A stretch of 29,898 nucleotides of DNA, taken from positions 1 to 29,898 of IMG/VR virus record IMGVR_UViG_3300045965_000036. One strand, 5' to 3'. The notes under the pieces were generated by a model. It did no database searches. It saw only the letters and a list, made by a program, of their open reading frames with translations, and had not been told where the DNA came from. The stretch comes from a virus. This document shows positions 27,671 to 29,470 of the stretch, piece after piece (positions within the stretch are counted from its first letter, which is position 1; each line of letters begins with the position of its first letter). The position numbers were made by a program, and so were the translations under genes.

Positions 27671-27732
27671 ATTGCAGACTCGGGGCGCATCTAGCCATAC
27701 CGCGCCCCCACCGCTCTAGCAGCACCAAATCA
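27671..27732 (+). promoter_or_regulatory. structured leader element, copy 1
   Basis: ATTGCAGACTC, stem GGGGCGC (27682-27688), 13-nt loop ATCTAGCCATACC, stem GCGCCCC (27702-27708), then CACCGC...AGCACCA. Copy 2 at 29061 shares flanks and loop, but the stem is replaced by a different perfectly paired one. Covariation of this kind points to a conserved RNA structure in the 5' leader of the DUF932 gene. Confidence 0.65.
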
Positions 27733-27755
27733 GAGAGCGCACAGGAGAGACACAC

Positions 27756-28754
27756 ATGGCCCACGATCTGAGCATCCAGAACGGCAAGGTTGAGATGGCC
27801 TACAGCGGGGACACTCCCTGGCACTCACTCGGCACCCGGGTAGACGGTCTCCAGACACCTCAGGACATGGTGAGGGTGGCTATCCCCTTCACTGTGGGAC
27901 TGCGCGAGGTGTACCAGCAGGTAGATGGCCAGCCGAGCCTGATCCAGGGGCACCGGGCCATCGTCCGAGAGGATACCAATGTGGTTCTGGGCATGGCCAG
28001 TAAGAATTACAAGCCAGTCCAGAACCTCCAGGTTGCCGAGATCATGGACGCCATCGTCAGTGAGGGCAACGCCACGGTCGAAGTCTGTGGCGCCCTTGGC
28101 AATGGCGGAGAGTGCTGGATGCTCTCCCGTATCCCTGACACCTTCGAGGTCACCCGGGGCGATCAGATCAACAACTATGTCCTGCTGGCATGGGGCCATG
28201 ACGGCAAGCATGGGATCGCGGGCAAGGTCACTCCCACCCGAGTGGTCTGCCGCAACACCCTGAGGGCAGCTGGCTTCGGCAAGGGCAAGTGGAGCACGAG
28301 TGCCGATCTGTACCTCAAGCATTACGGGGACATGAGAGTCAGGATCGCTGAGGCACGGGATGCTCTTGGCTTGATCCACAAGCAGGTGGAGACCACGCAA
28401 GAGGCCTACAAGGCTCTCGCCGCTCACCAGGTGACCACCGAAGAGGTCCGCGCCTACTTCAAGACTCTCTTCCCCGAGCCCGTCAAGCCTGAGACCCCTA
28501 CCAGTGCCTACAAGGAGCAGGTGAACCATTGGCTTGACCGCTACTCAGAGCTTATCAGCGCCTATGAGAGTGCTCCCGGGGCCACTCCAGGGACAGCGTG
28601 GGGCGCCTACAACGCCGTGACCTACTACACCGATCATCGCTACCCGATCCTGAGCAATGGCCAGTGGTCGCAGTCTCGGGTGCAAACGGTTGCAGCTGGC
28701 AGCATGGCCACGGTCAAAGACAAGGCACTCACGGAAGCTCTGGCCCTGCTGTAA
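27756..28754 (+). CDS. DUF932-type phage/plasmid protein
   Basis: 332 residues. N-terminal MAHDLSIQNGKVEMAYSG-D-TPWHSLGTRV, then YQQVDGQPSLI, VLGMASKNYKPVQN, VCGALGNGGECWML, NNYVLLAWGHDGKHG and TRVVCRNTL match the DUF932 family (TIGR03299-type) found in phages, plasmids and their hosts; its biochemical role is not known. The C-terminal half is helical and ends in WGAYNAVTYYTDH. The start is ATG 27756 with AGGAG 8 nt upstream. It is bracketed by a structured leader and, directly after its stop, a predicted hammerhead ribozyme. Confidence 0.9.
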   Translation: MAHDLSIQNGKVEMAYSGDTPWHSLGTRVDGLQTPQDMVRVAIPFTVGLREVYQQVDGQPSLIQGHRAIVREDTNVVLGMASKNYKPVQNLQVAEIMDAIVSEGNATVEVCGALGNGGECWMLSRIPDTFEVTRGDQINNYVLLAWGHDGKHGIAGKVTPTRVVCRNTLRAAGFGKGKWSTSADLYLKHYGDMRVRIAEARDALGLIHKQVETTQEAYKALAAHQVTTEEVRAYFKTLFPEPVKPETPTSAYKEQVNHWLDRYSELISAYESAPGATPGTAWGAYNAVTYYTDHRYPILSNGQWSQSRVQTVAAGSMATVKDKALTEALALL

Positions 28755-28757
28755 GCA

Positions 28758-28822
28758 AGGCGAAACCTAGGGGCCAGCAATGGCCCCGATGGTCTCCAGG
28801 TATCACCTGGACTGATGAGCCT
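28758..28822 (+). ncRNA. type II hammerhead ribozyme
   Basis: In order: stem II 3' strand AGGC (28758-28761); core GAAA (28762-28765); stem III ACC (28765-28767) and GGGGCC (28770-28775), loop AGCAAT, GGCCCC (28782-28787) and GGT (28791-28793); cleavage-site C17 (28794); stem I TCCAGGT (28795-28801), loop ATC, ACCTGGA (28805-28811); core CTGATGA (28812-28818); stem II 5' strand GCCT (28819-28822). The 10.1-11.1 G-C pair, the A15.1-U16.1 pair and the GTC triplet are all present. Cleavage is predicted between 28794 and 28795, 40 nt after the DUF932 stop codon. Confidence 0.88.
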
Positions 28823-28860
28823 GAGAGGGGCCATACGCATCGTAGCCTGAGGAGGCACAC

Positions 28861-29055
28861 ATGCAGATTCAATGTGAGAAGTGTGGGTGTATCGGGATCA
28901 ATTTTCCTCGGAAGTGGGCGCATGAGGAAGCTAAACAGCACCGAGCCAAGCATAGGGCCCTAGGCGTGAACGGGCACCATGGCGATGTCCGGGTGAAGGT
29001 CGAGAAGGATGGAGACATAGGGGCGCTTGCGATGTTCACGCTACCCCGACGCTAG
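28861..29055 (+). CDS. small zinc-finger-like protein
   Basis: 64 residues. C5-x2-C8 near the N-terminus and H21, H27 and H31 further on (CEKCGCIG; KWAHEEAKQHRAKH) form a C2H2-like set, with GHH further on. A beta-like VRVKVEKDGDIGALAMFTL tail follows. The start is ATG 28861 with GGAGG 5 nt upstream. It lies just downstream of the ribozyme. A DNA- or RNA-binding role is possible but unproven. Confidence 0.75.
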   Translation: MQIQCEKCGCIGINFPRKWAHEEAKQHRAKHRALGVNGHHGDVRVKVEKDGDIGALAMFTLPRR

Positions 29056-29060
29056 CCCAT

Positions 29061-29110
29061 ATTGCAGACTTGGCCCCCATCTGCCGCACCGGGGGGCCGA
29101 CCGCAGCACC
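29061..29110 (+). promoter_or_regulatory. structured leader element, copy 2
   Basis: ATTGCAGACTT, stem GGCCCCC (29072-29078), loop ATCTGCCGCACC plus G, stem GGGGGCC (29092-29098), then GACCGCAGCACCA. Shares all unpaired blocks with copy 1 at 27671 while the stem sequence differs at several pairs. It begins 5 nt after the stop of the preceding gene and precedes the gene at 29132. Confidence 0.65.
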
Positions 29111-29131
29111 ATCAATGCAGAGGGGGAGAGC

Positions 29132-29470
29132 ATGAGCACCTATCCGACGCCGGGACCATGGTTCGTGAGGGAGAGTACGTGCAAGCGGCACTCGCCCGGA
29201 GACCCAGAGTGCAGGATCGGGCCAGATGTCATGGTCCGCACGGGGGAGGATTTGCCCGTGGCACAGTGTTACGGGTCGCCCCACCGGAGCCTGAATCAGG
29301 CGAAGGATAACGCTCGCCTGATCGCCGCGGCGCCGGAGATGTTGGCATTCCTGAAGCTTGTGGCCGACTACCAGCACGCCGCATGGTCGGATGACGCTGA
29401 AGAGCAGCGGTCAGCCTTTGCCATGAGTGCATGGGAGATCATCGCCAAGATCGAAGGGAGGGAGGCATGA
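29132..29470 (+). CDS. small phage protein with NARLIAAAPE motif
   Basis: 112 residues from ATG 29132, with GGGGGAGAG just upstream. Begins MSTYPTPGPWFV, has three Cys (CKRHSPGDPEC, QCYG), then AKDNARLIAAAPEMLAFLKLVADYQ, a motif common to a widespread family of small phage proteins of unknown function. The C-terminal half is helical. It follows structured leader copy 2. A longer frame from 29027 is rejected because it would read through that element. Confidence 0.85.
   Translation: MSTYPTPGPWFVRESTCKRHSPGDPECRIGPDVMVRTGEDLPVAQCYGSPHRSLNQAKDNARLIAAAPEMLAFLKLVADYQHAAWSDDAEEQRSAFAMSAWEIIAKIEGREA

Follow-up and report, generated by a model that had tools for sequence, protein, structure and literature searches.

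What would a hammerhead ribozyme do between two genes of a phage? The question is raised by IMG/VR record IMGVR_UViG_3300045965_000036, which was analyzed in its entirety (29,898 bases, hereafter the window) and comes from a phage whose capsid and portal proteins have remote relatives only. On its plus strand lies a DUF932 gene and, shortly after it, a motif of 65 nt (28758–28822) with the features of a type II hammerhead. Judged from its sequence, this motif is quite probably a genuine type II hammerhead that cuts a polycistronic phage mRNA co-transcriptionally between positions 28794 and 28795, separating the DUF932 message from the downstream one. The preliminary description of the locus took such a role to be new, but hammerheads as cutters of long phage transcripts into gene-length messages were proposed in 2011, on the basis of prophages (Perreault et al., PMC3088659), and the hammerhead in the window may plausibly act between its two genes in this way as well. 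Cleavage by phage and prophage hammerheads has been observed in three arrays in vitro and, for one array, in E. coli cells (PMC3088659), and the roles of prokaryotic hammerheads were listed as an open question of the field in a 2017 review (PMC6155905).

The motif follows the type II circular order, stem II being its open stem and the other two being closed, and every core element that had been reported was found in its place, with a predicted fold that agrees. Stem II has four base pairs, as described, between AGGC (28758–28761) and GCCU (28819–28822; GCCT in the DNA). The 5' strand is followed by the core residues G12, A13 and A14 (GAA, 28762–28764), and A15.1 at 28765 opens stem III (28765–28793), in which ACC and GGT (28791–28793) pair next to the core. 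The stem III hairpin does end in GGT followed by C17, as had been noted, but it is not a plain hairpin: it is interrupted by a 2 × 3 internal loop, UA (28768–28769) on the 5' side and GAU (28788–28790) on the 3' side, beyond which a 7-bp helix (GGGGCCA/UGGCCCC, 28770–28776 with 28781–28787) is capped by a GCAA tetraloop (28777–28780). From its position within the motif, cleavage is predicted between C17 (28794) and U1.1 (28795), directly after a cleavage triplet of the NUH type, GUC (28792–28794). Stem I (28795–28811), previously credited with seven base pairs, has six canonical ones (UCCAGG/CCUGGA, in the strands 28795–28801 and 28805–28811), the seventh being a U-A pair that closes the triloop AUC (28802–28804). 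The core sequence CUGAUGA (28812–28818) leads into the 3' strand of stem II; like GAA, it is invariant across the hammerhead alignment A2. The elements of the hammerhead core (CUGANGA, GAAA and the A15.1-U16.1 and G10.1-C11.1 pairs) are all present in the window, and the minimum free energy structure of the isolated motif is the exact hammerhead secondary structure (−32.7 kcal/mol, z −2.3). The motif has the triloop AUC and a tail without complementarity to it, and a pseudoknot joining loop I to the 3' tail was not seen.

How far does the motif stand apart from chance? A relaxed hammerhead descriptor, scanned over both strands of the window, gave this single match, and in a control of 20 Mb of simulated, window-like Markov sequence it gave eight relaxed matches, none of them with stems as good as those of the window motif. 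The motif also has features that the search did not require, including the 4-bp stem II followed by a mismatch, the 6-bp stem I with its U-NNN-A loop, an A before stem II, and the UA/GAN module of stem III with a G-C closing pair. The Rfam model RF02276, for which a score above the gathering threshold had been suggested as a check, matches the motif from end to end (E 3e-4 for this genome) but gives it 23.2 bits, under the cut-off of 37, a gathering score being a matter of curation and not a defining feature of the structure. A covariance model (R1) was built from 36 other phage hammerheads of the same group (group (b), described below), leaving the window out, and the window ribozyme is its sole match in the window, at 44.6 bits (E 7.7e-12, a rough value from a short calibration). 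In the alignment of these 36 relatives 98.2% of the cells are paired, against 31–43% in slid controls, and both sides have changed at 13 of the 17 pairs. At the locus itself there is no covariation, since the sole relative there, a contig of 45.6 kb (L002) that is 98.6% identical over 5.1 kb, has an identical ribozyme. Viral contigs searched with the DUF932 protein and with the downstream open reading frame (ORF) returned that contig as the only close relative each time, and a DNA search of a phage collection with the locus found nothing usable beyond a short match leading to phage Pablito. By all of the sequence and structure tests run, except the Rfam cut-off, the motif at 28758–28822 is supported as a type II hammerhead.

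The low Rfam score likely has its reason in the kind of hammerhead that the model rates well. A pattern scan of viral contigs yielded at least 120 stretches, and the descriptor drew at least 187 distinct type II hammerheads from the matches listed, the sample being the first 120 contigs listed for one pattern. Two groups can be told apart among these matches. Group (a) has a stem I hairpin of 21–25 nt, a stem II of 3 bp, and tails that could form the pseudoknot with loop I described by Perreault et al. (PMC3088659). Group (b), to which the window hammerhead belongs, has a stem I hairpin of 16–19 nt, with six pairs and usually U-NNN-G/A, and a 4-bp stem II followed by a mismatch. RF02276 gives most of group (a) about 36–59 bits and group (b) about 24–33 bits; it is likely that the model favors pseudoknotted hammerheads and underscores the class without the pseudoknot, members of which will then be missed in annotation. 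The type II hammerhead of RF02276 (Perreault et al. 2011, PMC3088659) shares with the window motif the circular order, the invariant core, the closed stems I and III, the open stem II, and an intergenic setting in phages or prophages; in addition to its lower score, the window motif differs in lacking a pseudoknot of loop I with the 3' tail, in its 4-bp stem II and U-NNN-A triloop on stem I, and in the UA/GAU internal loop of stem III. The pseudoknot is present in about 40% of all hammerheads and in the majority of those of type II, and it is not obligatory (PMC3088659). A strict group (b) pattern had seven matches in 84,980 prokaryote genomes and occurred in 38 of the 120 listed viral contigs, which were chosen for their hammerheads, so that the two counts are not comparable as rates. 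Bacterial contigs from Inquilinus limosus (L217), Microvirga lupini (L221) and a Hyphomicrobiaceae MAG (L223) have two or three type II hammerheads within a few kb, and are possibly prophages.

The gene upstream of the ribozyme (27756–28754, plus strand, with the stop codon TAA at 28752–28754) encodes a DUF932/TIGR03299 phage-plasmid-like protein of 332 aa that matches PF06067 (E 9.1e-46), phrog_1221 (E 1.7e-66) and TIGR03299 (E 3.4e-59). This bears out the earlier assignment of the gene; the ribozyme, on the other hand, is not in the 3' region of the gene itself, but in the intercistronic gap of 106 nt that follows, beginning 3 nt past the TAA and leaving 38 nt between its end and the next start codon. 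The downstream ORF (28861–29055, plus strand, 64 aa) had been called a small zinc-finger-like gene, and it does have a CxxC near its N-terminus, but it has no match in Pfam, PHROGs or NCBIfam, and it is conserved solely in the 98.6% identical contig. It is preceded by a Shine-Dalgarno (SD)-like GAGGAGG (28849–28855), recognized from the sequence and the folds, which sits inside a small hairpin, GCCU-GAGG-AGGC (28845–28856), whose GCCU and AGGC arms repeat both strands of stem II.

This position is typical of phage hammerheads. When the stop and start positions around 185 listed phage hammerheads were compared with random positions, 64% had an ORF of 60 aa or more whose end lay no farther than 25 nt from the ribozyme's 5' end (15% at random), and an SD-like site with a start codon followed within 80 nt downstream in 76% (24% at random), at a median of 26 nt, crude gene calling being unreliable in GC-rich contigs. 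The upstream stop codon most commonly lies 0–5 nt before these hammerheads. Phage type II hammerheads thus occupy a fixed slot, just past a stop codon, with the next start about 26 nt further on, and the window ribozyme, lying between two same-strand genes at offsets of −4 (stop) and +39 (start), fits this slot. Is there also a link to DUF932? Hammerheads directly flank DUF932 genes in several other, independent phages, just 3' of the stop codon (L142), just 5' of the start (L166, L033), on both sides (L050), or upstream (L065). A specific link was dropped, however, with a hammerhead directly adjacent in 2 of 80 DUF932 loci fetched irrespective of hammerheads, and a DUF932 gene present in about 8 of the 120 listed hammerhead contigs. 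Because of the low count in the unselected loci, DUF932 looks like one among many genes in hammerhead operons.

The same slot is filled again and again in cultured phages. Streptomyces phage Pablito had seven matches to the covariance model, and in the annotated right-hand ~10 kb of the Janusviruses Pablito, Janus, GirlDinner and Triumph (L250–L253), 37 of the 39 intergenic gaps longer than 60 nt hold a hammerhead, counted with the CUGANGA core, although these phages are related and the 37 occupied gaps are not independent events. The two remaining gaps resemble coding sequence or unannotated genes. No hammerhead was found on the opposite strand of the ~10-kb regions, and 3 Mb of simulated Janus-like sequence had none. 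Several of the Janusvirus hammerheads are altered at core position 7 (CUGACGA), and at an orthologous junction both sides of stem III have changed, reading ACCUCC/GGAGGU in Pablito and ACCACC/GGUGGU in Triumph. Like the window, the Janusvirus arrays place type II hammerheads right after stop codons and mostly about 20–30 nt before start codons. They differ in being mostly of the long-stem-I class, in having 9–11 copies per ~10-kb region, and in the UA/GAN module, which was not seen in the four phages but is present in Streptomyces phage Yara. With hammerheads in nearly all of their gaps, these cultured phages make the role of phage hammerheads directly testable. The clustered prophage hammerheads described earlier (the A. 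tumefaciens ardA array, C. scindens and A. caulinodans) also lie at gene junctions, and for them cleavage in vitro was reported and processing of transcripts to gene-length mRNAs proposed (PMC3088659). The window, by contrast, has a single copy, beside DUF932, known here from sequence and with the near-identical L002 as the only close sequenced relative.

How might such a cut serve the phage? After RNA polymerase had passed position 28822, the nascent RNA would fold and cut itself. Of the two products, the upstream one would have at its 3' end the stem III hairpin (−18.2 kcal/mol) and a 2',3'-cyclic phosphate. The downstream one would start at 28795, with a 5'-OH on a stem I hairpin of −9.0 kcal/mol, and would retain the SD; the downstream ORF would be translated from this RNA, behind a leader of 66 nt. 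Since the type II permutation closes stems III and I, both new RNA ends would be capped by hairpins. Presumably, these capped ends would stabilize each message, and the decay and translation of the adjacent genes would be uncoupled.

The internal loop of stem III recurs in other hammerheads. It lies 3 bp from the core, and reads in full ACC-UA-G...C-GAU-GGU in the window, which conforms to the definition used for the set, ACC-UA-(helix)-GAN-GGU with a distal G-C pair. Among 173 listed hammerheads unselected for the module, UA/GAY was the sole recurring internal loop of 2 × 2 or larger, with five occurrences, each at a distance of 3 bp from the core, and a UA/GAA variant was seen once (L065). 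In directed scans, GAU was returned in 20 stretches and GAC in 13, and the UA/GAN total is 33 distinct hammerheads on 28 contigs, with variable outer stems and with carriers that include genomes of Inquilinus limosus and Microvirga lupini as well as the cultured phage Yara. The pair distal to the loop, which was left unfixed in the search patterns, is G-C in 32 of the 33, against 57 of 162 (35%) of the other hammerheads listed. The module accompanies both types of stem I, and we take it, from these sequences, to be a specific structural element. The UAA/GAN internal loop and the 11-nt GAAA tetraloop receptor (CCUAAG/UAUGG) are likewise small and asymmetric, and contain U, A and G-A elements; the likeness is a lead only, the loop here being 2 × 3 (CCUAG/CGAUGG) and set within stem III of a ribozyme. 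The idea that a GNRA tetraloop pairs with a receptor in stem III of its own RNA was considered and dropped, GNRA loops occurring with the module in 12 of 33 and without it in 44 of 162, no clear enrichment. The module is recurrent and apparently undescribed: no description was found in the literature searched, the supplementary alignments of PMC3088659 lying outside that search.

Could the motif be something other than a cutter? It is unlikely to be a hammerhead-like relic or a chance fold that does not cut at a useful speed in the cell. The Rfam score under the cut-off would suit such a reading, as would the finding that, of 18 hammerheads conforming to the consensus, 4 showed no activity in vitro (PMC3088659) and the opening of stem II in longer folds: with longer flanks, an open stem II is preferred (stem II probability 0.05) by energy models that leave out tertiary contacts and co-transcriptional order, and the stem II/core strand forms a hairpin with the tail GGGGCCAU (28827–28834). 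A relic, however, would be expected to have lost some of the core bases or of the features not searched for, and all of these are intact. Even less probable is that the hairpins are what matters, in which case stems III and I would stabilize mRNA ends or weakly terminate or attenuate transcription, with cleavage being secondary. Stem III is indeed stable, compared with a class median of −11.4 kcal/mol, and both hairpins flank the cut, but the plus strand at the locus has neither a U-run nor a predicted terminator, and the conservation of the catalytic core in many unrelated copies would be left unexplained. Cleavage could also serve the circularization or ligation of genes between two hammerheads, via the 5'-OH, the 2',3'-cyclic phosphate and a ligase, and some DUF932 genes do have hammerheads on both sides (L050). 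A circular RNA is very improbable here, the window contig and its 45.6-kb relative having a single hammerhead each, and spliced or circular products were sought but not detected in other phage arrays (PMC3088659).

A cutter that is regulated is a somewhat different matter. The opening of stem II in the long-flank folds could slow or regulate cleavage, or it could be an artefact of the energy models. The tail is a repeat of the 5' arm of stem III, and GGGGCCAU is able to pair with AUGGCCCC of stem III (28780–28787) or with the stem II/core strand, either of which would rival the active fold. Cleavage switched by such pairing of the tail, or by the UA/GAN loop, is a doubtful proposition. It draws on the competition by the tail that appears in the folds and on the module, fixed at 3 bp from the core in all 33 carriers and nearly always closed by G-C. 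Against it, there is no known ligand, protein or docking partner, the GNRA loops are not clearly enriched, and the module could be a structural stabilizer. That the UA/GAN loop is conserved for docking or binding, and makes these phage hammerheads conditional on an RNA contact, a protein or a small molecule, is accordingly put forward as a rather improbable idea; if true, these would be natural regulated hammerheads setting the gene-by-gene processing of mRNA during phage infection. The recurrent stem III module also offers a mutable handle on the roles of prokaryotic hammerheads.

The same phage has a second kind of structured intergenic element, of which there are two copies in the window (27671–27755 and 29061–29132). 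These share the layout ATTGCAGACTyGG, a hairpin with the loop ATCTnGCCnyACC, and then ACCGC...AGCACCA, and the arms of the hairpin differ between the copies yet stay complementary. They start 0–5 nt past a stop codon and end shortly before a start codon, which is the slot of the hammerhead. The element had no match in Rfam, and a pattern search found no relatives outside this phage; it is possibly another processing or regulatory RNA. Finally, tandem paralogous small genes of the same operon, about 74% identical over 200 nt, are found in L002 (4946–5992) and L204 (5676–6740); their products start with MTTTTTT, a poly-threonine stretch encoded by ACC repeats.
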